Assembly (NCBI GenBank): GCA_028822445.1
Contig: JAPKDQ010000001.1
Location: forward strand, 310,001 to 374,000
Source: Rhodospirillaceae bacterium
Lineage (GTDB): Bacteria > Pseudomonadota > Alphaproteobacteria > Rhodospirillales > Rhodospirillaceae
Reading direction: 5' to 3'
DNA length: 64,000 bases
In this document: positions 5,888-59,666 of the stretch, piece after piece
Position numbering within the stretch: position 1 is the stretch's first letter
Layout: each line of letters begins with the position of its first letter
Program-made: the position numbers and the translations under genes
The notes under the pieces: model-generated
What the model saw: the letters and a program-made list of their open reading frames with translations, nothing else
Databases searched by the model: none
Told to the model about the DNA's origin: nothing

Positions 5888-6772
5888 TTAGGCGTCACCC
5901 CACGCCAAAACATCTGGAATAAACTCTTCAGCTTGGGCCAAATAGGCTGGCGACAATTCGTCGAAGCTTTTCAGTTTACTCCCGGCGCAATGCCAGACTG
6001 AATGACCGGGTCGGTCGCCCATGTTGAGAAAACCTTGCCAAGGCGCCAGGAATACGATCCCGAAAATTGAATCTACGCGTTGGAGTTCTGGATTCCGAAT
6101 TTGGTCTAAAGCAATTGTGGTGGTGCCGTACTCGGCCAAGGGAATGGGGCGTTGATCCGGGTATTTGCGCTGCCCGATCATTTGAATGTTATCCCCCATG
6201 ACCGTCCAGGTCAGGGTCAAGGCGCTTTCCATTTTTGGATCAATGTCGGCGCTCCAGTTTTCACCTTTCTTTGCATTGGTGTTCCTGGCGAACTGTGCGC
6301 TGGTGATTTTACCGTCTGTTCCAACGTAATATAGGCTGCGCGATCCAATAATATTTGGTGCGACTAAATTTTCTTCACCGGTCCAGGGGTTGCGATACAC
6401 CTTACCATTCAGGACTTCGCCGGAGTTCGGGTCTTTGAAAACCGTCATGACCTTCGACCAAACCTCGTAACGGCCATCGCCGCGTTCCATAACCATTTTT
6501 GTCTCGCAGCTTTCGCAATCAAAAACGATCTTTGGATTCTGATCGGGTGTCACGGCAATATAATAGCCGCGCCAAGCGTTCGGTGCCGGCTTGCCGGTGA
6601 GGTCGCCCTGAATGCGCAGGTAATCTCGTAATTCTTGCTCTGGGGATGTGTGGAAGGGGCTACCCGATGCAGTGGCCGACCCTGTAATACCTGTGGCGGC
6701 TATGGCTCCAAGGCCGCTGACGCCAAGATTGAAGGCGCGGCGTGATATCATAGGTTCAGACAAAGTCGTCAT
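5888..6772 (-). CDS. Tat-exported DUF1838 family protein (copy 1)
   Basis: A 294-residue protein. The N-terminus has a twin-arginine motif (SRRAFN, residues 10-15) followed by a hydrophobic stretch and a small-residue cleavage region, so it should be exported folded to the periplasm. The body matches DUF1838: a RGYYIAV segment, the pair FDCESCETKMV, and a FKDPNSGEVLNGKVYRNPWT stretch. DUF1838 has no established biochemical role; members often sit with oxidoreductase and catabolic genes. GGAGA precedes ATG 6772. A divergent paralogue lies at 57094-58008 in the Rieske oxygenase operon, which suggests related roles at the two loci. It stands alone here, downstream of a gap with a decayed VOC gene. 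Confidence 0.8.
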   Translation of the reverse strand: MTTLSEPMISRRAFNLGVSGLGAIAATGITGSATASGSPFHTSPEQELRDYLRIQGDLTGKPAPNAWRGYYIAVTPDQNPKIVFDCESCETKMVMERGDGRYEVWSKVMTVFKDPNSGEVLNGKVYRNPWTGEENLVAPNIIGSRSLYYVGTDGKITSAQFARNTNAKKGENWSADIDPKMESALTLTWTVMGDNIQMIGQRKYPDQRPIPLAEYGTTTIALDQIRNPELQRVDSIFGIVFLAPWQGFLNMGDRPGHSVWHCAGSKLKSFDELSPAYLAQAEEFIPDVLAWGDA

Positions 6773-45057: not shown

Positions 45058-46140
45058 CTATAAAGCGCTATTTTTCTGGGTCTGGTAGATATGCGCTTGC
45101 CCATTGATGTCTTGGATTTCCAGCCCCCCATCTTCGGAGCCTGAGATATAGGACGGCCCGACTGGCACTTTGCCGTATCCGCCTGGGATATCCAGAATGT
45201 AGGTAGGGATCGCGAGACCCGATATGCGGCCGCGTAGCTGTTTCATCAGCTCCTGCCCTGTTTCAATCGGGACACGAAAGTGGCCGGTGCCTGGGGCCAG
45301 GTCAGGATGGTGAAGATAATAGGGCATGATACGTGCTTCCACCATGGTGCGGAATAGCTCTGCGAGCGTATCTGCATTGTCATTGATGCCTTTTAGAAGA
45401 ACCGTTTGGCCGACGAGCGGAATCCCAAGGTCAGTAAACTTTCGGCATGCTGCCAAAGTATCTGCCGAGAATTCCCGTGCATGATTGCTATGAACCGCGA
45501 CGTAGACCGTGGCGCGTCGGTTGGAGAGCGCCGCAACGAGGTCTTGCGTCACGCGCTCTGGCGCAGCGACAGGTAGCCGAGTGTGAAACCTCACCACCTT
45601 GACATGTTCGATGCAATCTAATGAATCTAATAAAGTAGAGATGCGCCTTGCAGAAAGCATCATTGGGTCGCCACCGGTTAGGATGACCTCCCATATTTTT
45701 TTGTTGCTTCGGATGTAGCCTAACGCTTCGGTTGTGTCTGCGTCGGTCATTATGTCTCCGCCCGGGCCGACCATCTCGCGACGGAAGCAGAACCTACAAT
45801 ACATTGCGCAGGCGTTATGAACCTTCAGAAGGACGCGGTCAGGGTAACGGTGGACGAGTCCCCTTACCGGGCTGTGTGTATGATCCCCGATGGGATCGAC
45901 ACTTTCGTCATCGGTTGTGACAAGTTCCTGTAACGAAGGCACAATTTGGAGGGCGATGGGATCGTTTTCAGCCGCTTTGTCGATGAGGTCAACCAAATGT
46001 CGCGGCGCTGAAATCGCATAGCGGTGCGCCACGCGTTTGAGATTCTTAGCCTCGTCGCTAGTGACGAGGCCTTCCAGAGCGAGGGCTTCGGGGGTGGTTG
46101 CGCCGGTATTCTGTATACGATGATGGGTCATGCGTGCCAT
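45058..46140 (-). CDS. KamA family radical SAM aminomutase (lysine 2,3-aminomutase or EpmB type)
   Basis: A 360-residue radical SAM enzyme. The 4Fe-4S cysteines are Cys111, Cys115 and Cys118 in HNACAMYCRFCFRR, followed by the glycine-rich ILTGGDPMML segment. It is shorter than clostridial lysine 2,3-aminomutase (about 415 residues) and closer to EpmB, which forms beta-lysine for elongation factor P. The partner genes epmA and efp are not in the window, so the choice between free beta-lysine synthesis and EF-P modification is open. An alternative start at 46131 would remove three residues. Confidence 0.88.
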   Translation of the reverse strand: MARMTHHRIQNTGATTPEALALEGLVTSDEAKNLKRVAHRYAISAPRHLVDLIDKAAENDPIALQIVPSLQELVTTDDESVDPIGDHTHSPVRGLVHRYPDRVLLKVHNACAMYCRFCFRREMVGPGGDIMTDADTTEALGYIRSNKKIWEVILTGGDPMMLSARRISTLLDSLDCIEHVKVVRFHTRLPVAAPERVTQDLVAALSNRRATVYVAVHSNHAREFSADTLAACRKFTDLGIPLVGQTVLLKGINDNADTLAELFRTMVEARIMPYYLHHPDLAPGTGHFRVPIETGQELMKQLRGRISGLAIPTYILDIPGGYGKVPVGPSYISGSEDGGLEIQDINGQAHIYQTQKNSAL

Positions 46141-46252: not shown

Positions 46253-48250
46253 ATGATATTGCTTCAGACACCGTGGACACCTAGTACAGCGCAAGAAACG
46301 CTTTCTCGGGTCATAGCGCAAAGCCTTGCGACCCTCGTGGAGCCACAGGGCGCATTGCTATTGCTACCTCATGCTGATGGCGACCCGAGCGATGCTGTAC
46401 AAGAGGAAAAGGTTATTGACGCCTTATCGGCGCTTTCAAAAACCCACGGAATTTCGATGTGCGGGTCAGTCTATGTTCGCGATGAAGACGGTATCGTTCG
46501 AACAATTGGGTATTTGACCAGTCCCGACGGTGATTTGCTTCTTCGTATGCCGAAAATTATGCCTGATCTTTTGGAAGGGTTTACGGATACAGCCTCTGCT
46601 GTATCGCAACCAGCAGAGTTTCCAGTGGCGATGACGTCTGAGGGCCAAGTCGGCATTCTGTGTGGTGAAGATGTTCTTTCCCCTCATATTGTGCGCTCAC
46701 TCGTTACCAGTGGCGCCGAGGTTATCCTTAATCCTAGCCGTGAACGAACGGATAAGCACTTCGAGATTCGGCAAAAGGCCCGCCAAGCCCGGTCTTACGA
46801 GAATGCGGCGTATGTGGCATCAGCTTCGGCAAGTGAAGTGACCATAGCCGGCGCAACCATAAAGCTGCCGGCCGCCACTGCGCTTGCTGAGCTGTGGGGC
46901 ACAGAGCTTAGGGCGTCTTCGGATGAGTCCTTTATTGTTGGCGACATCGATATTGAAGGCCTGCGTCGCCGGCGTGAGGAGCCTATGGGTAATTTACCCG
47001 CGATTGTTCGCATGCGGTTGTATGCCCACGGGTATGCGGAAGAGGCTTCAAGCGCGCGTCCATCGCCAGCAACGCGAGAGGAATGGATTGCTGCCGGAAA
47101 AGAAAAAGTGTCAGCATCTGTTCAAGCCAAGCGGGATGCTGATGATCTGATTGATCGATACGATGTTCTTCTAGGGCAGACTGTGACCCAGGTTTCTATG
47201 AACCCTGATGTATTGCCCGAATACCGGCAGAAGAACCTTACTAACGCATTGTACGTTGCAGGACCTTTCGCAAAATCTCCGGGCGTTAAACTGGTCGTGT
47301 TTCCTGAGTTCTTTCTGACCGGCCCCGTCAGTCAGCTAGGCAGTCAGTCTGGGCACATTGCAAGCAAGATTGGGATAACGTTCCCAGGACCCGAAGCAGA
47401 TCAATTGGCGAAATTTGCGCAAGACAACAAAACCTATGTGTCTGGCGGGGTGTTTGAGTTCGATCCGAAGTGGCCGGATCGTTTCTTCAACTCTGCTTTT
47501 ATATTCGATGATAACGGCAATCTCGTGCACCTGTATCGTAAGATTCACTGTGCAGATGTGTTTGGTCGCTTGCCCGATACGACGCCTGGAAGTGTATACA
47601 CGGAGTATGTGGATCGTTACGGCTATGACCGCCTGTTCCCAGTTGCGGATACTCCCCTTGGTAAACTATGCACGGTCATCTGCTTTGACATGAACTTCGG
47701 AGAGACCCACCGGGCGATGGTAAAACGAGGCGCAGAAGTCATCATTCACCCTACATCTGAGCCCCATAACGTGAGGCGACGAGGTTGGGACATTACGCGT
47801 CACGTCCGGGCGTTTGAGAACACTGCTTATATTTTATCGGCTGGTCACGGTGGCGAGTTTCGTGGAGAAGGTTTGAGTTTCCCAGGGTCCATGCAGCGCG
47901 GTTACTCTAAAGTGGTCAACTATGACGGCTCGTTGCAATGTGTCGTTGATGGGCCAGGTGCTGTTCCGCTGGTTGGTTCAATAGATATGACGGCGCTCCG
48001 TCGTGCCCGCGCTGACCTTAAGGGTAATCTGGCGGCGTGGGACGACCCAGTTGTCTATGCCCACAAATATGCAGAAGAGAGAGGCATTGGAAACGATGCT
48101 TGGGCCGGTGATCCGATGGTTAACCCGTATGCAGACGGTGCTGAGATTAAAAAAATGATCAAGATTTACCAGCGCGACGGTGTCTACGTTCGGCCTGAGG
48201 GCTCGGGTGGAAAACCAGCGATCGATCAATCTATGCAGGCTGTGGTCTAG
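46253..48250 (+). CDS. Tandem nitrilase-domain protein 1 (degenerate domain fused to intact domain)
   Basis: A 665-residue cytoplasmic protein made of two carbon-nitrogen hydrolase domains. The C-terminal domain (about residues 300-620) has the full triad: Glu352 (VVFPEFFLTG), Lys430 (LYRKIHC) and Cys477 (TVICFDMNF). The N-terminal domain (about residues 1-235) has the same fold pattern, but the Glu position is His40 (LLLPHADG); Lys101 (MPKIMPD) and a Cys137 (ILCGEDVL) remain. The second half should hydrolyse an amide, nitrile or carbamoyl bond; the first is probably structural or regulatory. Nitrilases usually have one domain of about 300 residues. It is followed by an SDR and a second fusion on the same strand. 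Confidence 0.85.
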   Translation: MILLQTPWTPSTAQETLSRVIAQSLATLVEPQGALLLLPHADGDPSDAVQEEKVIDALSALSKTHGISMCGSVYVRDEDGIVRTIGYLTSPDGDLLLRMPKIMPDLLEGFTDTASAVSQPAEFPVAMTSEGQVGILCGEDVLSPHIVRSLVTSGAEVILNPSRERTDKHFEIRQKARQARSYENAAYVASASASEVTIAGATIKLPAATALAELWGTELRASSDESFIVGDIDIEGLRRRREEPMGNLPAIVRMRLYAHGYAEEASSARPSPATREEWIAAGKEKVSASVQAKRDADDLIDRYDVLLGQTVTQVSMNPDVLPEYRQKNLTNALYVAGPFAKSPGVKLVVFPEFFLTGPVSQLGSQSGHIASKIGITFPGPEADQLAKFAQDNKTYVSGGVFEFDPKWPDRFFNSAFIFDDNGNLVHLYRKIHCADVFGRLPDTTPGSVYTEYVDRYGYDRLFPVADTPLGKLCTVICFDMNFGETHRAMVKRGAEVIIHPTSEPHNVRRRGWDITRHVRAFENTAYILSAGHGGEFRGEGLSFPGSMQRGYSKVVNYDGSLQCVVDGPGAVPLVGSIDMTALRRARADLKGNLAAWDDPVVYAHKYAEERGIGNDAWAGDPMVNPYADGAEIKKMIKIYQRDGVYVRPEGSGGKPAIDQSMQAVV

Positions 48251-48417
48251 GGCTCCACTCAATTGGACGAGAAGGGCTGGGCTCTATGTATAGAAGAGTT
48301 CCTATTGGGTTTACTTTACTCGCCATCCGGCCAATTTCTTCTCTAAATCGTGACTCGCACAGATTGGTGACCGTGTCATACTTCAGCCTGGTTTTTGGAA
48401 TGAGAAGGAGAACTGTA

Positions 48418-49125
48418 ATGTTTAGGAAAGTTCTTGTTAGTGTTGCCATCATAATTTTTGGGCTTGCGGGAGTCAGTAGCGCATCCGCAGTCGAGGGCCC
48501 TGTGCTTGTGTTTGGCGGGACAAGCGGGACTGGCCTGGCAACCGTCCAATACCTTCGCGCCCAAGGCGTTCCAGTCACGGTTTTTGTCCGCCCGACATCC
48601 GACACGTCGGTTCTTGAGCCACTTGGCGTCAAGATGGTAGTTGGAAACGCGCTCAATGCTGATGATGTGAATGCGGCATATGATTCCGGAAGTTACAAAG
48701 TGGTTGTGAGTTCTCTGGGTGGTCGGCGTGGAGAGCCGCGCCCTGACCTAGAGGGCAACAAGAATATTACAGCTGGTGCTACTGTGTTCGGCGTGAAGCG
48801 CGTTATTCAAATAAGTTCAATCGGTGCTGGCGAAACTCGTGAGCCACCGGGTGAGGACGATAATTTTATGGCCGGGGTTCTCTACATGAAAACTTTGGCG
48901 GAAGACGACCTCATTGCCAGTGGTCTCGACTACACTGTAATCCGTCCGGGTGGATTGCGTCGCGGTGAATCCACAGGCACGGGAGTCCTACAAGAAACAG
49001 AAACCATGGGGGCCATAGATCGCCAAGAGCTTGGGCGATTGGTGGTTTATGCCTTGGACGACGCTTCTACGGTTGGGAGAGTGCTGTTCGCGATTGACCC
49101 GGCTCTACCGGCATCCGAAGAATAA
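48418..49125 (+). CDS. NAD(P)-binding protein with signal peptide (NmrA/SDR-like)
   Basis: A 235-residue atypical SDR of the NAD(P)H-binding (NmrA/SDR_a5) type. After a signal peptide (MFRKVLVSVAIIIFGLAG, cleavage near SASA-VEG), the Rossmann start is VLVFGGTSGTGLATVQYL, followed by VVSSLGGRRGEPRPD and IQISSIGAGETR. Export of a nicotinamide-nucleotide protein by Sec is unusual. ATG 48418 has a good ribosome site (agaaggag); the frame is open upstream. It lies 20 bases before nitrilase fusion 2 and probably forms one operon with the two fusions. Confidence 0.82.
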   Translation: MFRKVLVSVAIIIFGLAGVSSASAVEGPVLVFGGTSGTGLATVQYLRAQGVPVTVFVRPTSDTSVLEPLGVKMVVGNALNADDVNAAYDSGSYKVVVSSLGGRRGEPRPDLEGNKNITAGATVFGVKRVIQISSIGAGETREPPGEDDNFMAGVLYMKTLAEDDLIASGLDYTVIRPGGLRRGESTGTGVLQETETMGAIDRQELGRLVVYALDDASTVGRVLFAIDPALPASEE

Positions 49126-49145
49126 TAACGGCTGAGAGATTTACG

Positions 49146-51098
49146 ATGATTCTTCTTCAAACGCCCTGGTCTATAAATTCGATGGGAGACGCCGACGCTG
49201 CAATTCGACAAGCGATGAGAACGCGAGCCAGTGACGGGCCCGAGATTGTTCTGTTGCCTCACGGGGACGGATCCGAAGCTAAAGCATCTGCGGAGAAAGA
49301 TGTTACTGCTGCTTTAGCCAAGCTAGCTGAGGCTCATGCGGTGTACATCGCGGCATCTGCGTATGTGATTGTTGATGGGGAAAAACCGCCAAGAACTATT
49401 GGCCTGGTTGTCGGGCCCCGCGGTGAAACCCTAACGCGTACGTCGAAGGTTATGCCTGATGTTGTTGAGGGGTATACTGATACGTCGGCAGATACCTTCC
49501 GACAGGCCTCGTTCCAGGTTGCGCAGACGCCCCTCGGTCAGCTCGGGGTTCTGTGTGGTGAAGACATTCTGGCCCCTCACATTGTGCGCACTATGCTTGT
49601 GAGTGGTGCTGAGATCATTCTCAACCCAACGAGAGAACGGTCAGATGCCTTGTTCGACAGTCGTGCCGTTGCGCGCATGGCGCGCGCCTACGAAAACCTT
49701 ACTTATGTTGCTGTCGCGTCTCCACTGACCGTAGATATTGATGGGGCCCGTGTCGCTCTGCCGACGGCTACGTCATTGTATCCACCGCAAGGCAAGCCCA
49801 TCGCTGCTAAGGGCTCGGAATCTTATGTCAGGGCAGATATTGATATTGAGGCGTTGCGGCGCAAGCGCTTGAGCCCGGCATTGAATTTCCCCAGCATTGT
49901 GAGGATGAATCTTTATGCCCCCGGGTATAAGGCTGAAGCGGGGGAAGTTCGAGCATCGCCGCAGTCTCGTGCGGAATGGTTGGCAGAGGGTGAGTTGCGG
50001 GTCGCTGCCCTGGCGCAATCGCTTAAGCCTGAGCCTATTTCATCGTATGGCGCGATGGTGGCGCAGCATGTCGTGCATCAATCCCATACGCCAGAACAGC
50101 TTATTGAACGTCGCCAACCCAATTTGGACGATGCGTTTGACTTGGTTCGAAATTACGGCGCGCGCGCCGCAAACTTAAAATTAGTTGTGTTTCCGGAGTT
50201 TTTTTTGACAGGCCCTGTGAGTCCATTAGGACATAAGCTAGGGCATATCGCAGATAAGATTGGCGTCACTTTTCCTGGCCCTGAGATGGATCAAATTGCT
50301 GCCTTCGCGCAAGAAATTGGCGCCTATGTTTCAGGCGGCGTGTTTGAGTATGATCCAGACTGGCCAAACCGGTTCTTCAACACGGCATTTATCTACGATC
50401 CGTCTGGTACGCTCATACATCGATACCGCAAGATTCATTGTGGAGATGCTGTTGGGTTTCTGCCTGACACAACGCCTGGCAGTGTGTTCGACCGGTACGT
50501 TGATAAATACGGGTACGAACACCTTTTCCCCGTTGCTGAAACCCCGATTGGGCGCCTCGCGACGACGATCTGTTTTGATAATAATTTCCCTGAGACCTAT
50601 CGCGCGATGGCCAAAAGAGGGGCAGAAGTTATTTTACACCCTACATCTGAACCCCATGGGTCTCACCGTGCTGGGTGGGATGCTGCGCGACGAATGCGTG
50701 CGTTTGAGAACGTCGCATATGTTCTGTCGGCGGGTCACGGCGGTGAATACTTCTTGCCGCATAGAACCGTACCGAGTGCTAGGGCGCGCGGGTACTCAAA
50801 GATCATAAACTTTGATGGCTCTGTTCAGGCGGAAGCGGATACGGCGGGTCAAGTTCCTTTAAGTGGCGTGATTGATTTGCGGGCCTTGCGGCAGGCGCGC
50901 GCTGACCTGCAGGCTAATATATCTCTATGGGACGATTCTGTAGTCTACGGGAAAGAGTACGCGCAAAAGCCGCGCGGACTTCCCAATAACCTTTGGCCTG
51001 ATGACCCTTTCGGTAACCCGTACTTTGGTGGCGCTGAAGTGAAAAAAGTCATCGAATCTTATGTGAACGAAGGTATTTTTTCCGCACCCACAGACTGA
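49146..51098 (+). CDS. Tandem nitrilase-domain protein 2 (degenerate domain fused to intact domain)
   Basis: A 650-residue paralogue of the protein at 46253-48250, with the same start MILLQTPW and the same two-domain plan. C-terminal domain: Glu351 (VVFPEFFLTG), Lys429 (RYRKIHC), Cys476 (TTICFDNNF), all intact. N-terminal domain: His39 in place of Glu (IVLLPHGDG), Lys101 (TSKVMPD), Cys137 (VLCGED). Conservation of His at the Glu position in all copies suggests that the N-terminal half serves a selected purpose other than normal nitrilase chemistry. It ends 3 bases before the convergent DctP gene. Confidence 0.85.
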   Translation: MILLQTPWSINSMGDADAAIRQAMRTRASDGPEIVLLPHGDGSEAKASAEKDVTAALAKLAEAHAVYIAASAYVIVDGEKPPRTIGLVVGPRGETLTRTSKVMPDVVEGYTDTSADTFRQASFQVAQTPLGQLGVLCGEDILAPHIVRTMLVSGAEIILNPTRERSDALFDSRAVARMARAYENLTYVAVASPLTVDIDGARVALPTATSLYPPQGKPIAAKGSESYVRADIDIEALRRKRLSPALNFPSIVRMNLYAPGYKAEAGEVRASPQSRAEWLAEGELRVAALAQSLKPEPISSYGAMVAQHVVHQSHTPEQLIERRQPNLDDAFDLVRNYGARAANLKLVVFPEFFLTGPVSPLGHKLGHIADKIGVTFPGPEMDQIAAFAQEIGAYVSGGVFEYDPDWPNRFFNTAFIYDPSGTLIHRYRKIHCGDAVGFLPDTTPGSVFDRYVDKYGYEHLFPVAETPIGRLATTICFDNNFPETYRAMAKRGAEVILHPTSEPHGSHRAGWDAARRMRAFENVAYVLSAGHGGEYFLPHRTVPSARARGYSKIINFDGSVQAEADTAGQVPLSGVIDLRALRQARADLQANISLWDDSVVYGKEYAQKPRGLPNNLWPDDPFGNPYFGGAEVKKVIESYVNEGIFSAPTD

Positions 51099-51101
51099 TC
51101 C

Positions 51102-52133
51102 CTAAGGTTTAAATGACCGCTTGGCTTCTTGAATTGCCTCGTATATTTCGGCAGCCTTATCCCCGACACCTTCAATGATTTGACCGGTTACGGGAGCGGA
51201 TGCCTGTATCCAAGCATCTCTTTGGGCTGGCGTTAAGCTGTGTATGGTAAATCCGATCTGATCAGCTTGGTCGAGAAATTTCTTTTCTTCGGCGCGCGAC
51301 ATGGCACGTGCTTGATCGATGGGGAGCCATCCATTTTGCACGATGGCCTTCTGGTTTGCTGGCAACTTCTCAAGCCATTTTGAATCAGCAATCATGAAAT
51401 TGACCGCATGCATGTGGCTTGTTAGAGAGAGGTGTGTTGCCTCTTCTGATATTCCCGTGCTCGCATATAGGATTACAGCATTGGCACCTGCATCAACGAG
51501 CCCGGTCTGGAGACCGATAATGTTCTCGGTGAAAGCGAGGGGGATGATGTCGGACGCGATTGCTTCAGCAAAGAGCCGGGCTGCAAGACCAGAGGAGACC
51601 CGAAACCGAACACCCTGTAGATTGCTAGGTGTTAAAATGGGTTTCTTTCCGTAGATGTGATGAACCCCAACTTCATCCCATGACATAAGGGTAAGGTGGT
51701 GTTGCGCAAGCAAATCGCTGTATATGTCGAATAATACGGTATCAAAAATATGGTCTGCTTGCTCGGTGCTGTCGAAGAGGAAGGGTGCTTGAAGTAAGGC
51801 GGCTTCGGCCACAATTGACCCAATGACCAACCCAGACAAATTCGCGACTTGAACGCGCCCGCGTCGCAAGCTGCTCAGTATTGTTTCTTCTGAACCCAGT
51901 TCGCCTGAAACCATTGGCGTGAGTTCGAGGTCGCCGTTTGACTGATTGTTCACGCGATCACGAAACATCATCCATTTTTCAAACCCAGCTGTGCCTTCTG
52001 GCACGCCGGTCGTGCCACCGATGATGGACATGGGTTTTGTTGCGCTTGTTTGGGCTGTCACTGCTGACGAAAAGCTAATTACAAGGATAAGGTGGGACAA
52101 ACTTGTCGTAAGGAAACGGTAGATGGTGAACAT
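51102..52133 (-). CDS. dctP: TRAP transporter solute-binding protein, DctP family
   Basis: A 343-residue periplasmic binding protein of a TRAP transporter. It has a Sec signal peptide (MFTIYRFLTTSLSHLILVIS, cleavage after TAQ). The DctP body includes ETILSSLRRGRVQVANLSG, a PFLF segment in the first lobe, GVRFRVSSGLAARLFAEAIA in the middle, and GLVDAGANAVILYASTG. These proteins commonly bind organic acids through an arginine, plausibly within RFRVSS. The membrane partners DctQ and DctM are absent from the window, so it works with a transporter elsewhere or is an orphan. It sits on the opposite strand between nitrilase fusions 2 and 3. Confidence 0.88.
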   Translation of the reverse strand: MFTIYRFLTTSLSHLILVISFSSAVTAQTSATKPMSIIGGTTGVPEGTAGFEKWMMFRDRVNNQSNGDLELTPMVSGELGSEETILSSLRRGRVQVANLSGLVIGSIVAEAALLQAPFLFDSTEQADHIFDTVLFDIYSDLLAQHHLTLMSWDEVGVHHIYGKKPILTPSNLQGVRFRVSSGLAARLFAEAIASDIIPLAFTENIIGLQTGLVDAGANAVILYASTGISEEATHLSLTSHMHAVNFMIADSKWLEKLPANQKAIVQNGWLPIDQARAMSRAEEKKFLDQADQIGFTIHSLTPAQRDAWIQASAPVTGQIIEGVGDKAAEIYEAIQEAKRSFKP

Positions 52134-52428
52134 TAAACTCAGGCTTCCAATAGCTCGTTTGAGAGATGGTATGATAAGGTCTATGGCCGATGCTGTAGCT
52201 GAGTAAGTTGGGATTGTTTAAGAATATTATAAAATAGCCATTATTGTGTTTTATTGGATATTCCAGAACACCAATCAGACGGTCACGTGTCAGGCGCAAC
52301 ATTTAAAATGGCGGGAATTGCGCTTGGTCATTGGTTATGCGGTGTTTCTTTTTGCTCCAGCATACTATCATTCAGTAAATATAACCGCCTAAATGAGATG
52401 CGGGTCTCTAACTAGAAAAGAAAGTTTT

Positions 52429-54537
52429 ATGAGCATGCTTTATATCTCTCAGAAATCTTGGTCTCCTGACGACATCGCGGCGCTGACCAAACAGGTTGAA
52501 ATGATCTCAGCTAATTCAGCTCGGTTTGAAGTTGGCGCTTCATTCAGCCCGGTGGTCCTTTTGCCACACTCTTCTAACGGTAAGGCGCCACAGGACCGGA
52601 AAGTATTGCTTAAGGCTTTGACTGGGCTCGCCGCGGACAAGAACGTGTTTCTTGCTGGATCGGCAGTGGTGCAAGGCGACGGAGATGGGGCCTCAATCAC
52701 TTTGGGCTTTCTAGTGGGTGCTGACGGCGACGTGTTGATTGAGACAGAGAAAGTATCCCCTGAACTAGTGAACGGAGTGGCGACGGATCAAACTAGTCGT
52801 TTGGGTCAGCCGAAAGAGTTTAAAGTTGCGAACACGCCGATTGGCCAAGTGGGTATTCTACCTGGCGAAGATATTCTGTTTCCGCACTACGCGCGCAGCA
52901 TCGTCTGGAAGGGTGCGGAGGTTATTCTCAACCCAACCGAGGAAACGGCCGACGATTTGTTTGAGGCGCGCCAAAACGCACGGATCGCACGTGCTTTTGA
53001 GAATACCGCATTTATCGTAACAGCATCGGCAATTTCCCGCGAACAAAATGGTGCCGACATTTCATATCCAAGCGCTAGTGGTCTTTGTGATTGGAGCGGT
53101 CGTCAGATCGAGGCTGCAGCGAATGAAGATTTTCTCAAGACGGATGTTTATGTCGATAAGTTGCGCCGCAAGCGTGCCGCGATTTTTGGCATTGCGCCCT
53201 TGCACCTGAGGGCTAATTTGTTTGCAGAGGGTTACCGTAGGATCATCGTTGATCAAAAGTCCGCTCCAGCGCAGCCGCGCAGCAAAGAAGAGTGGGTAAG
53301 TGACGCGACGCGACGCCTTGAGACTGCGAAAGCGGCTGAGGGTGCGGGGCACGAGACGGAATACGATGTGCTGTTAGTGCAGTCAGTAAAAACGATGATT
53401 CAGAAGACCTCTGATGTACGAGAGATGATCACAGAGAATGTAACACGTGCGCTGGAATTGCCCGCGCGCACGGCATCTAATCCAAATGTCAGGCTTGTCG
53501 CTTTGTCAGAGTTTTTCATGACAGGGCAGGGCGGCCACGGATACCGTTCGCCCATCACGTTGCAGCGTCTTGCGATTCGCTATCCTGGGCCAGAGATGGA
53601 GCTGCTGTCGGAGTTTGCGCTTAAGCACAAAGTTTATCTCTCTGGCTCAACTTTTGAAATCGACGACAAGCTTCCTGGCTACGTTTTTAACTCGGCCTTT
53701 ATTCTCAATGACTCAGGTGATCTCATTCATCGCTATCGCAAAATACAATGTGCCGACGTCTGGGGGTCTCTACCTGATACCACGCCGAGTACAATCTACG
53801 ATCAGTATTTGGATACGTATGGGTATGACTTCCTCTTTCCTGTCGCCGACACGCCAATTGGCCGGCTCGGCACTATGGTGTGTTTCGATCAAGCGCACCC
53901 GGAAATTGCTCGTATGTTGGTCAAAAATGGGGCTGAGGTCATTATTCATCCGTCTTCGGAGGGGCATGGATCTGGCCGCCGAGGCTGGGACTATGCGCGC
54001 CAGACCCGCGCCTTTGAGAACGTCGCCTACATCTTGTCGCCCTTGCCCGGCGGCGAGCACTTTACGCCGAACTCAAAGTATGAACATACCAATCAAATGC
54101 GCGGGTATACCAAGATGGTAAACTTCGACGGTTCTATCCAAGGAGAATTGGACACGCCGGGAGCTGCTACTCTGGCCGGTACGGTTGATTTGCTTGCCCT
54201 ACGTCGTGCGCGGGCCAACCCGCACGTCAACTTGCCGATGTGGGATGACCCCAATGTATATGTCGAGGATTATGCGGCCGAGGTTGGGCTTCCAAACAAC
54301 ATCGGCACAGGAGACCCGCTTGGCAATCCGTATCGTGGCATGAGGCCTCTTCGGAAAGTGCTAAGCAGCTATTACGACCGCGGAATCTTTGTTCCACCGA
54401 CAGCGCCATCTTCTCGGTCCTTATCGGTTCCGGGGAAGGCGCAACCAGATTTCGATAAGCCGAGCGCCGAAGAAGCTCCTAAGGCGAAGACTTTAGCAGA
54501 TGAGGAAAAGATGGATGGTGAATACATCCAAATCTGA
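52429..54537 (+). CDS. Tandem nitrilase-domain protein 3 (N-terminal catalytic Cys lost)
   Basis: A 702-residue paralogue of the two preceding fusions, with an extra C-terminal tail of about 60 polar residues (from TAPSSRSLSVPGKAQPD). The C-terminal domain has an intact triad: Glu361 (VALSEFFMTG), Lys438 (RYRKIQC), Cys485 (TMVCFDQAH). In the N-terminal domain the Glu position is His47 (VLLPHSSNG), Lys108 remains, and the Cys is replaced by Pro145 (GILPGEDIL), so this half cannot act as a nitrilase. ATG 52429 is chosen; an in-frame codon at 52393 is unlikely. It heads a six-gene operon through the Rieske beta subunit. The 295 bases upstream should hold its promoter and that of dctP. Confidence 0.85.
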   Translation: MSMLYISQKSWSPDDIAALTKQVEMISANSARFEVGASFSPVVLLPHSSNGKAPQDRKVLLKALTGLAADKNVFLAGSAVVQGDGDGASITLGFLVGADGDVLIETEKVSPELVNGVATDQTSRLGQPKEFKVANTPIGQVGILPGEDILFPHYARSIVWKGAEVILNPTEETADDLFEARQNARIARAFENTAFIVTASAISREQNGADISYPSASGLCDWSGRQIEAAANEDFLKTDVYVDKLRRKRAAIFGIAPLHLRANLFAEGYRRIIVDQKSAPAQPRSKEEWVSDATRRLETAKAAEGAGHETEYDVLLVQSVKTMIQKTSDVREMITENVTRALELPARTASNPNVRLVALSEFFMTGQGGHGYRSPITLQRLAIRYPGPEMELLSEFALKHKVYLSGSTFEIDDKLPGYVFNSAFILNDSGDLIHRYRKIQCADVWGSLPDTTPSTIYDQYLDTYGYDFLFPVADTPIGRLGTMVCFDQAHPEIARMLVKNGAEVIIHPSSEGHGSGRRGWDYARQTRAFENVAYILSPLPGGEHFTPNSKYEHTNQMRGYTKMVNFDGSIQGELDTPGAATLAGTVDLLALRRARANPHVNLPMWDDPNVYVEDYAAEVGLPNNIGTGDPLGNPYRGMRPLRKVLSSYYDRGIFVPPTAPSSRSLSVPGKAQPDFDKPSAEEAPKAKTLADEEKMDGEYIQI

Positions 54538-57067: not shown

Positions 57068-57093
57068 TGATGAAGTTCTGAAGGAGCTTGAGT

Positions 57094-58008
57094 ATGAAGA
57101 AGACTACCTGGAGTCGTCGTAGCGCACTCGCATCAGCAGGCGCAGCCAGTGCGGTTCTTGTCTCGGCTGAGGCCGTGCAGTCCGCAAAGGCTTCTATGCT
57201 TCCAGATTCAATATCTGATTGGACTCCGGAGGACCGCGTCTACGCATTGGCAAAGCAGCAGGGCCGGATTGATGACGGCAAAGCGATTTGGCGGACGCGC
57301 GGCGTAATTTATGGCTTTAAGGCTCCTGACTCACCCATTCCACTCGTTCGGTTCAAAGGGTGTGAGCAGCAATGGGTGAAGAAAGTCTCAGATGCTGAAT
57401 TCGTTAAATATAATTCGCTCCTGACCTATTACAGCGATTTTGAGAGTGATGAGATTATCGATGGTTTTACCAACCCAATGACGGGTCAGGACGTTACGTT
57501 CAAGCCCAATTGGAGCCGTGTTCCAGAAGGTCAAAGCATATCTGCTCGCGGCGTCACGCTTAACATCATCGATAAAGCGTTCCCGGATTTCTATGCCAAG
57601 AGTTCAATTCGTGACGTAGAAATGAATTTGATCGGCGATACAGTGTCGTTTCACGCCAAGATGAGGTGGCCCGAACCATTAGTGCGTAAGCCTTATAATC
57701 AAGACAATACCTTTTTTGCTAAACTTTCTGATCTTCAAGACCCTGATCAGTCATGGATACCCGCGCATGGGGCAGGTCAAATTCTAATGCCCTCTATGGC
57801 AAGTATTGGGATGAACGATCCCGACCTCGGTCAGGTCATTTGGCACGTGGAATTTTATAAAATAAAATCATGGGATGATTTGCCCGCCGACTACCTAGAG
57901 AAGGCATTGGCTGAGCACGGCGAAGATTTTGACGTGAACCCGAAGGGCGATACTGTTCCGTCAAAGCTGGCTCAGAACCTTGCTCGCTTAGGGTACGTAA
58001 AGGATTAA
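57094..58008 (+). CDS. Tat-exported DUF1838 family protein (copy 2)
   Basis: A 304-residue DUF1838 protein. The twin-arginine motif is in TTWSRRSALASAG, followed by a hydrophobic region ending near SAKA. Body segments IYGFKAPDSPIPLVRFKGCE, TYYSDFESDEIIDGFTNPMT and GQVIWHVEFYKIKSWDDLPA parallel the copy at 5888-6772. The start is ATG 57094, with aaggag 7 bases upstream. The next gene, a Rieske oxygenase, begins 6 bases after the stop. DUF1838 function is unknown; the context suggests a role in handling the oxygenase substrate or product outside the cytoplasm. Confidence 0.82.
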   Translation: MKKTTWSRRSALASAGAASAVLVSAEAVQSAKASMLPDSISDWTPEDRVYALAKQQGRIDDGKAIWRTRGVIYGFKAPDSPIPLVRFKGCEQQWVKKVSDAEFVKYNSLLTYYSDFESDEIIDGFTNPMTGQDVTFKPNWSRVPEGQSISARGVTLNIIDKAFPDFYAKSSIRDVEMNLIGDTVSFHAKMRWPEPLVRKPYNQDNTFFAKLSDLQDPDQSWIPAHGAGQILMPSMASIGMNDPDLGQVIWHVEFYKIKSWDDLPADYLEKALAEHGEDFDVNPKGDTVPSKLAQNLARLGYVKD

Positions 58009-58014
58009 GCTCCT

Positions 58015-59211
58015 ATGAGTTCACGGGACAAAAAATCGTGGGACGCTTCACCTGATATGCCTGCGGGGCATTTCGTCTCGGGTGACGTCTACACTGATCC
58101 GGATATCTATAAAGACGAGTCCGAGAAGGTCTTCGCAAAGGCGTGGCGGTTTGCGTGCCATGATAGTGAGCTTCCAGAAGCGTTTGACTATCGTGTGTTT
58201 GAGCAAGACGGGCAGTCTCTTTTTGCGATACGAGGAGAAGATGGCGTTATTCGGTCTTTTCTTAATGTTTGCTCTCATCGTGGTGCGAAACTACTGGATC
58301 AACCTGCCGGTAATGCCAAGCTTATCACCTGCTTTTATCATCGATGGACCTACGATGCCCACGGCCATTGTGCTGGAATTCCTCGGGTTTCGGGATATTC
58401 AGGGGATGTGGTCAGCAAAGAGACCATGGGGTTGCGCGAAGTGCGGACCGAGACTTTGCATGGTTTGGTCTTCGTCACGCTGGATGACGCAGCGCCAGAC
58501 TTAACGTCATTCGTTGGTAAGGCTCTCGATCGATTTTCTGAGATGCTGACCGGGCAGCCTCTTGAGGTGTTCCATTATAACCGCGCGGTTCTCGATTGTA
58601 ATTGGAAGGCCTGGCACGAAACCAACATGGATCTTTACCATGAGTTCATGCACGTGGTTTTGCGTAAGACACAAGTGAATGCAATGCCGATGAAAGACCG
58701 CAAGCTCATTGTGTTTAAAAATGGTCATGGCGGCAGCGGAGGCGATATGAAGGCTGCCTATGACGGATACAAGGGCTTCGCTGGCCGAGGTAATGATATT
58801 CCGCCTTTATCGGGAATGGCGCCGACAGATTTTCGCTTTATTAATCTGTTCCCTTCGACTGCGATTATTTCACGCGGGACTGTCGTTCGTATTGATACGG
58901 CGACCCCTATGGGCCCGGACAAGACACTGCTTGAAATGCGCGGGCTTGGCGTTATGGGCGAGCCGGAAGAACACCGACGTGTGCGCCAACGTCATCACAA
59001 TCAATACTGGGGTCCCTTCGGGCGCAACGTGCCAGAAGATACAATCGCGGCTGAGGCCTGCGCGGATAGCTTTCGTGGCCACGCAGGGCGCTATCAAATT
59101 ATTAGTCGAGACGAAGGCCTTACAGGACAGGACGACGCAGTGCTTCGGGCGTTCTATAAAGAATGGGCGCTAAAAACCGGGCGTGACCCAGGGCAGCCCG
59201 TATCGTCATGA
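58015..59211 (+). CDS. Rieske non-heme iron oxygenase, alpha subunit
   Basis: A 398-residue ring-hydroxylating oxygenase alpha subunit. The Rieske [2Fe-2S] ligands are Cys86 and His88 (NVCSHRGA) and Cys106 and His109 (CFYHRW), with the usual 17 residues between His88 and Cys106. The mononuclear iron site is ETNMDLYHEFMHV: His209, His213, and Asp206 as the bridging residue. The two His are three residues apart, where four is more common. The second Rieske motif has Arg where Gly is usual (YHRW for YHGW). No ferredoxin or reductase gene is adjacent. The beta subunit start overlaps the stop by 4 bases. Confidence 0.9.
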   Translation: MSSRDKKSWDASPDMPAGHFVSGDVYTDPDIYKDESEKVFAKAWRFACHDSELPEAFDYRVFEQDGQSLFAIRGEDGVIRSFLNVCSHRGAKLLDQPAGNAKLITCFYHRWTYDAHGHCAGIPRVSGYSGDVVSKETMGLREVRTETLHGLVFVTLDDAAPDLTSFVGKALDRFSEMLTGQPLEVFHYNRAVLDCNWKAWHETNMDLYHEFMHVVLRKTQVNAMPMKDRKLIVFKNGHGGSGGDMKAAYDGYKGFAGRGNDIPPLSGMAPTDFRFINLFPSTAIISRGTVVRIDTATPMGPDKTLLEMRGLGVMGEPEEHRRVRQRHHNQYWGPFGRNVPEDTIAAEACADSFRGHAGRYQIISRDEGLTGQDDAVLRAFYKEWALKTGRDPGQPVSS

Positions 59212-59666
59212 GAGAATTTGAACCAATACGATCACTCGTCGGTCGAAGCTGCCTCGCTCTCGATGATGGCGATTTCAACGGCTACCTTGATCTTTGTGCG
59301 CCTGAATTCGCTTATCGCATTGTTGTTTGGAGCCCCGAACTCGGCAAAGACATGGTTTGGCTTGACCATGACCGTGATGGATTAGCCGGGCTATTCGAGA
59401 CCCTACCTGACCACTTGCAACGGTCCGGTCGGTTTTCCAGGCATGCGTCTGTTTACACGGTTGAGGAGTATTCTGACGCGGGGCCATATTCTGTGGTGAG
59501 CAGTGTTGTGGTTCATCACACGGACCTCGGTGGTCGAACACAGACGCTCGCCGTTGGGCGGTACCTGGACACTGTCGTGTGTATTGACGGTGCCTATAGA
59601 TTATCGGCGCGTGAGGTTGCGCTGGAGACCCGCGACCTTGGCATTGGCCTCCATGTACCGCTCTAG
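59208..59666 (+). CDS. Rieske oxygenase beta subunit (NTF2/SnoaL-like)
   Basis: A 152-residue small subunit of an alpha-3 beta-3 type ring-hydroxylating oxygenase, with the cone-shaped NTF2 fold. Recognisable parts are FNGYLDLCAPEFAYRIVVWS, MVWLDHDRDGLAGLFETLP and the end strand AYRLSAREVALETRDL. It usually has a structural role and helps shape substrate choice. It is the last gene of the six-gene operon that starts with nitrilase fusion 3. The stop overlaps by 4 bases with the stop of the small membrane protein on the other strand. Confidence 0.87.
   Translation: MREFEPIRSLVGRSCLALDDGDFNGYLDLCAPEFAYRIVVWSPELGKDMVWLDHDRDGLAGLFETLPDHLQRSGRFSRHASVYTVEEYSDAGPYSVVSSVVVHHTDLGGRTQTLAVGRYLDTVVCIDGAYRLSAREVALETRDLGIGLHVPL

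Follow-up and report, generated by a model that had tools for sequence, protein, structure and literature searches.

Three Two-Domain Nitrilase Homologs at One Locus

The window analyzed here is a stretch of 64,000 nucleotides from a Rhodospirillaceae bacterium (assembly GCA_028822445.1, contig JAPKDQ010000001.1, positions 310,001 to 374,000). It contains three genes whose products, P1, P2 and P3, each join two carbon-nitrogen hydrolase domains, an N-terminal half that has lost catalytic residues and a C-terminal half that keeps a Glu-Lys-Cys triad (Table 1). The three open reading frames (ORFs; 665, 650 and 702 residues) are present as described in a first-pass annotation of this DNA, and the Pfam family PF00795 (CN_hydrolase) matches two stretches in each of them. 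In a six-frame search of the genome to which the window belongs, the C-half stretches of P1, P2 and P3 give E values of 2.1e-32, 6.5e-36 and 5.4e-33, and the N-half stretches give 4.6e-9, 4.1e-11 and 8.8e-8, all above the family cut-off. The C-half triads are likewise as annotated, as is the His that occupies the place of the catalytic Glu in the N halves (His40, His39 and His47, the last being His59 in the 714-residue numbering of P3). P1 is 53% identical to P2 and 43% identical to P3. We consider it probable that each protein is a single-chain pseudo-dimer, in which a dead nitrilase subunit is fused to a live one.

Table 1. Features of the locus, in window coordinates (aa, amino acids).
Feature	Position	Strand	Description
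Lysine 2,3-aminomutase-like radical SAM protein	45058..46140	-	TIGR03822, 483.6 bits (cut-off 396.25)
P1 (P0001), 665 aa	46253..48250	+	N half aa 1-~292, C half aa ~298-600, then C-terminal tail
P1 N half (pseudo-nitrilase)	46253..47128	+	His40 at Glu position, Lys101 kept, Gly138 at Cys position
P1 C half	47144..48187	+	Glu352/Lys430/Cys477; Glu451/Tyr452 close to the second-Glu position
SDR-type NAD(P)H-binding protein, PF13460	48286..49125	+	Between P1 and P2, also so in close relatives
P2 (P0002), 650 aa	49146..51098	+	N half His39/Lys101/Gly138; C half Glu351/Lys429/Cys476
TRAP-type solute-binding protein DctP, PF03480	51102..52133	-	Between P2 and P3
P3 (P0003), 714 aa from first ATG, 702 aa from ATG 52429	52393..54537	+	714-aa numbering: N half His59/Lys120/Gly158; C half Glu373/Lys450/Cys497
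ABC-type solute-binding protein family 5, PF00496	54576..56114	+	Recurring neighbor
Alpha/beta hydrolase, PF00561	56111..57067	+	Recurs beside P3-type genes
DUF1838 protein	57088..58008	+	24.7 bits, just below the 25-bit cut-off; recurs beside P3-type genes
Rieske oxygenase alpha subunit and beta subunit (Ring_hydroxyl_B/SnoaL-like)	58015..59666	+	Downstream

Predicted Fold of the Two Halves

When scanned alone against PF00795, 52 of 55 N halves match at E ≤ 0.001. The AlphaFold2 model of the isolated N half of P1 has a predicted local distance difference test (pLDDT) value of 91.2 and a predicted TM-score (pTM) of 0.89, and the 50 matches listed by Foldseek in a search of the PDB all belong to the nitrilase superfamily, with 2w1v as the best of them (E 1.1e-14, TMq 0.68). 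Structure prediction, which the first-pass annotation had proposed as a check, thus assigns a nitrilase fold to the N half.

The model of full-length P1 reaches a pLDDT of 91.4 and a pTM of 0.93, the latter suggesting a well-defined placement of the two halves. Three consecutive blocks spanning residues 241 to 270 have pLDDT values of 90, 94 and 88 in this model and of 67, 63 and 73 in the model of the N half alone, a fall that would fit the packing of the N-half tail onto the C half. Among the 50 matches listed for the full-length model (TMq ≤ 0.36), no PDB chain covers both halves of P1.

Catalytic Residues of the C Half

Relatives were compared in a set of 75 non-redundant rows, comprising complete ORFs of at least 480 residues that score above 300 bits, from which identical copies and those contained in another sequence had been removed. 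In P1 numbering, which is used hereafter, Glu352, Lys430 and Cys477 of the C half are kept in 75 of 75 rows, a figure that is partly built in because the contig search used peptide patterns holding the Lys and the Cys. The full triad is also found in all 17 rows that were retrieved by profile searches instead of peptide patterns. By its PF00795 profile match and its predicted fold, the C half is a member of the nitrilase superfamily, whose catalytic set is Glu-Lys-Cys-Glu (PMC4700190); the second Glu is Glu132 in a study of N-carbamoylputrescine amidohydrolase (PMC4812014). P1, P2 and P3 fall below the NCBIfam cut-offs for N-carbamoylputrescine amidase, deaminated glutathione amidase, formamidase and aliphatic amidase, and none of the PADLOC anti-phage defense models matches them at E ≤ 0.001.

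Lost and Kept Residues of the N Half

The N half is missing in two of the 75 rows, leaving 73 that can be scored at position 40, the place of the catalytic Glu. This position holds His in 39 rows, Leu in 14, Gln in nine, Ala in four, Glu and Ile in two each, and Val, Trp and Pro in one each. Sorted by the nearest window protein at 50% identity or more, His40 occurs in 13 of 14 P1-like, 11 of 12 P2-like and 8 of 20 P3-like proteins, and it recurs in 7 of the 27 more distant rows (below 50% identity). The His thus characterizes close P1- and P2-like proteins rather than the family as a whole, and a conserved non-standard role, for which it had been taken as an argument, is not borne out by a residue present in little more than half of the scorable N halves.

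The nucleophile of the N half is gone as well, a point that the first-pass annotation missed. Position 138, which corresponds to the catalytic Cys, is Gly in 68 of 73 N halves, Ser in three, Asn in one and Lys in one. An hhalign comparison of the two half-alignments pairs Gly138, not Cys137, with Cys477 (probability 99.85, E 1.3e-30), and in the full P1 model the pattern of strands and helices in residues 126–184 recurs in residues 465–523, always 339 positions later (from strand 126/465 to helix 170/509). Cys137, one residue before Gly138, is Cys in 31 of the 73. No N half has the full Glu-Lys-Cys triad (0/73); the two with Glu at position 40 both have Gly at 138.

Lys101 is retained in 67 of 69 N halves, and the residues that follow Gly138 are nearly as constant (Glu139 in 66 of 73, Asp140 in 71 of 73). 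Gly93, Arg148, Gly154 and Glu156 are invariant in 73 of 73 rows, as are Arg238, Arg241 and Arg253 in 75 of 75. The conserved features of the N half are Lys101, a Gly-Glu-Asp sequence at the elbow of the former nucleophile, and a group of Arg and Glu residues. The elbow segment (residues 136–142) has a mean entropy of 0.91, against 1.95 overall; strand 156–162 is lower still, at 0.75.

Variants of the N half were observed as well. Shorter doubles of 583–589 residues (L081:9584-11332, which lies on contig C25 of the same genome and is also listed as L002; L083; L087; L088) have N halves without the Lys segment, and represent a further decay of the pseudo-half. A 1051-residue ORF (L046:14428-17580) has a double nitrilase preceded by about 370 residues without a Pfam match; this front part may be a real extension or the result of an over-long start.

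Evolution of the Two Halves

A quick tree, with SH-aLRT support only, was computed from N halves, C halves and single-domain relatives, with 31 sequences of each. The N halves all lie on one side of a starred branch, and the same holds for the C halves; one old fusion is therefore the simplest history, probably followed by duplication and by transfer between classes. P1 and P2 belong to one group (support 99 for the C halves and 80 for the N halves), and P3 groups, with a support of 99 in both halves, with L014, L037, L048 (Steroidobacteraceae), L033 and L036 (Gammaproteobacteria). As to the first-pass question of whether one ancient fusion was later triplicated, the tree favors a single fusion, and the triplication is not a recent local event, given the grouping of P3 with Gammaproteobacterial relatives. 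The fusion may or may not have arisen by internal duplication: the tree places single-domain proteins between the N and the C halves, but a single clade uniting the two is not rejected by an approximately unbiased (AU) test (p 0.4). Full congruence of the two half-trees is contradicted in detail by L017 and the L079 group, described below.

The pairwise identities of the N and C halves correlate across 2628 row pairs (r 0.86), and the N half is the less alike of the two in 2594 of them. Measured against the nearest relative, L009, the ratio of nonsynonymous to synonymous substitution rates (dN/dS) of P1 is 0.098 in the N half and 0.035 in the C half; for P3, again against L009, the values are 0.102 and 0.011. 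These come from 15 pairs, in 13 of which the dS of at least one half was inestimable. With a dN/dS of about 0.1, the N half is under purifying selection and is not decaying.

Distribution

The genome of the window encodes five doubles: the three at this locus, one of 677 residues on contig C5, and the 583-residue protein on C25 whose N half lacks the Lys segment. Within the same family, 17 of 73 genomes match nearly the whole model by row count, and a tally that includes two genomes with single-domain matches only gives 19 of 73. An even draw from the class yielded near-whole matches in at least 4 of 385 genomes (this genome and three of one other family; 12 of 385 when single-domain matches are included), and a draw from the phylum in at least 1 of 398, this genome alone; no more than three candidates were scored per genome in either draw, so further doubles are possible. 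The named records with doubles are metagenome-assembled 'Rhodospirillaceae', other Alphaproteobacteria, one Phenylobacterium, Gammaproteobacteria, Steroidobacteraceae and Lysobacterales. In 5 of 50 loci of the contig pattern search (L054–L058, from other phyla), the match covers part of the C half alone. In a plasmid collection, 587 records match P3, none of them with a single place covering more than 80% of it.

The searches also returned single-domain relatives. An apparent fused double on contig C7 of the same genome (728-residue frame) was rejected, as ORF calling gives two genes of 350 and 348 residues. This locus (L080:9123-11249, or C7:63123-65249), L086 and L108 each hold two adjacent single-domain nitrilase relatives, which have the Glu and the Cys, an Arg for the catalytic Lys, and the motifs YRRIN and PCGEI. 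In three genomes of the same family, a Glu-Lys-Cys nitrilase and a Glu-Arg-Cys nitrilase are unfused neighbors (L105:1828-3984, L106:1869-4394, L107:1526-3682). Other single-domain relatives have Ala at the Cys position and are free-standing pseudo-nitrilases (L111, L113, L114, L115, L116), or have Ser there (L102, L112).

Gene Neighborhood

The gene order P1-SDR-P2-(SDR)-DctP-(other gene)-P3 recurs in L009, L011, L012, L021, L013/L091 and L089. L014 and L015 have two doubles each, one P1-like and one P3-like, without P2, and P3-type genes occur without P1 or P2 in Gammaproteobacteria. The first-pass suggestion that the three copies are specialized within one pathway is unproven: close relatives keep the trio in synteny, but the P3 type also occurs without the other two, and P3 diverged early from P1 and P2 in the tree.

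Neighbors within 8 kb of a double were counted in 45 named loci, some of them shortened by contig ends. Solute-binding protein family 5 is found in 16 loci, DUF1838 in 13, KamA-like proteins and flavin amine oxidases in 12 each, TonB receptors in 11, alpha/beta hydrolases in 10, IclR regulators in nine, DctP in seven and SDR proteins in six. DUF1838 and the amine oxidase accompany P3-like genes in Alpha- and Gammaproteobacteria alike, and KamA accompanies P1-like genes; the lysine 2,3-aminomutase-like radical SAM gene at 45058..46140, divergent from P1, is such a neighbor of P1-type genes. Taken together, the neighboring genes point to the uptake and breakdown of small nitrogen compounds and name no specific substrate.

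The presence of PF01593 proteins beside P3-type genes raised the possibility of a route like that of lysine 2-monooxygenase and aminovaleramidase, which combines a flavin amine oxidase with a nitrilase-type amidase. It was not adopted: the two amine oxidases searched resemble monoamine oxidases A and B, putrescine oxidase and L-amino acid oxidases, and their 53 and 49 matches at E ≤ 1e-10 include none named as a lysine or tryptophan monooxygenase. Of five amine oxidases, none reaches an NCBIfam cut-off.

DUF1838 is greatly expanded in this genome of 2.85 Mb, with 28 matches (24 genes by manual count), two of them within the window (5888-6772 and 57088-58008); it is found in none of 14 control genomes. 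One DUF1838 gene lies about 260 bases from the C25 double and another about 0.8 kb from the paired single nitrilases on C7; the C5 double has no match within 30 kb. The family gave no clue to function, as in the open-access literature searched the term occurs in a single paper, and there only in a gene table.

A Probable Single-Chain Pseudo-Dimer and Its Alternatives

The reading of each protein as a fused dimer with one live site is favored by three features: the two nitrilase folds, the confidence of the joint model, and the better order of the tail when the other half is present. The N half, without its catalytic Glu and Cys, would no longer hydrolyze a substrate; it would stand in for the second subunit of an ordinary nitrilase dimer, as the two-domain model and the near-general dimerization of these enzymes suggest. 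It is probably the built-in partner of the working half. According to a figure legend, superfamily monomers dimerize at the A surface in all members (PMC4700190), and the halves of P1 would probably meet through this surface. The subunits of nitrilase dimers exchange C-terminal fragments; in N-carbamoylputrescine amidohydrolase, the pocket is lined by a Trp from the tail of the mate (PMC4812014). On this pattern, the C-terminal tail of the N half may reach the C half and help to form its active-site pocket. Given the invariant triad, the C half would be expected to cleave C-N bonds of the amide or carbamoyl type by way of a Cys thioester. Each chain would thus have a single active site, and the partner half would be free to evolve separately and could tune specificity; the five duplicated genes might perhaps serve different small amides, imported by the neighboring transport systems.

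Several observations weigh against this reading, beside the partial circularity of the triad count. Conservation of the second Glu in the C half is not clear: column 451 varies among the 75 rows (Gln 24, Glu 20, Arg 20, Lys 6, Asp 4, Ala 1), and column 452 is Tyr in all 75. Profile alignments put Tyr452 opposite a Glu of NIT3, NIT2 and NitFhit, their catalytic one, and a hand count against an AguB-type motif puts the second Glu on column 451. Neither column is a conserved Glu, the site of the second Glu is uncertain, and the activity of the C half is therefore not certain. The conservation of Lys101 and of Gly-Glu-Asp would be unneeded in a pure scaffold. Helices 143–184, expected at the A surface, do not clearly stand out in the N half by their conservation, which is equaled in 22 of 262 shifted blocks and gives weak support to the A-surface model. 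In the trees, L017 groups with P2-like N halves but with P1-like C halves, and the L079 group has N halves like those of P1 and P2 (support 81, open) with C halves nearer to those of P3 (support 100). Finally, dimerization has one exception among the crystal structures, 3ILV (PMC4700190).

The retained elbow could also mean that the N half is a ligand-sensing regulatory subunit, in which a substrate-like ligand in the old pocket (Lys101, Glu139, Asp140) switches the C half. We give this a modest chance. These residues are kept although the full triad is absent from every N half, the elbow segment ranks with the better-conserved stretches of the N half, and beta-ureidopropionase, a relative of the nitrilases, is allosteric (PMC10741476); position 40, on the other hand, is loosely constrained, and the four shorter doubles dispense with the Lys segment. 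An elaboration of this idea, which we hold to be unlikely, would make the doubles self-regulated amidases, the dead half with its ligand pocket (Lys101 and Gly-Glu-Asp) controlling a C half whose Glu-Lys-Cys and invariant Tyr perform a chemistry new to the superfamily.

It is quite unlikely that the N half serves chiefly for higher-order assembly, such as spirals or filaments, or for the docking of a partner, e.g., DUF1838, rather than for the active site. True nitrilases do build spirals from dimers (PMC4700190), and DUF1838 is near a double in the 13 loci counted above; it is, however, within 8 kb in none of the ten loci with only P1-/P2-like doubles (L016–L020, L022–L026, several with short flanks), so docking of DUF1838 is improbable as a general role. 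An altered chemistry of the N half, using His40, Lys101 and either Asp140 or the adjacent Cys137, would be very unlikely: His and Lys occur together with Cys137 in 29 of 73 N halves, mostly P1-/P2-like, but the scatter of His40 and of Cys137 leaves no alternative catalytic set that is common to the family. That the doubles are artefacts of assembly or of read-through of a stop between two genes, as the C7 pair in one frame might suggest, has a negligible probability, since uninterrupted ORFs of about 640–740 residues recur across many separate assemblies and the N halves form one clade and the C halves another.

Nitrilases generally pair to work, and the contribution of each partner is hard to test because both are identical. 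Under the pseudo-dimer reading, the doubles are a natural experiment in which one partner is catalytically dead, fused, and under selection in several lineages; they offer one active site per chain, with halves that can be mutated separately, in a family that has expanded, with five doubles in this genome, among poorly known Alphaproteobacteria.

Comparison with Known Nitrilases

The first-pass annotation knew of no characterized family of this make-up, and none was found among the papers listed in searches of the open-access literature; a description may exist elsewhere, as subscription papers and UniProt were outside the search. NitFhit (1ems), NAD+ synthase and apolipoprotein N-acyltransferase carry a nitrilase domain inside a larger chain, but their fusion partner has a different fold and is not a second nitrilase domain.

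The doubles resemble NIT2 (2w1v), NIT3 (1f89), the formamidase of Bacillus cereus (5g3o) and the N-carbamoylputrescine amidohydrolase of Medicago (5h8i) in the nitrilase fold of both halves, in the Glu-Lys-Cys of the C half, and in the logic of the dimer. They differ from these enzymes in having two domains per chain, one of them without Glu and Cys, and in a second Glu that is not clearly conserved. The distance is also seen in the NCBIfam equivalog for N-carbamoylputrescine amidase, against which P2 scores 93.6 bits, compared to a cut-off of 410.25. The nearest single-domain kin within the tree are the adjacent pairs of L080, L086 and L105–L108, which like the halves of the doubles lie side by side. 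The pairs of L105–L107 are possibly an unfused parallel of the double family; by contrast with the dead half of the doubles, the partner in these pairs is a separate protein that keeps the Glu and the Cys and has Arg in place of the Lys.

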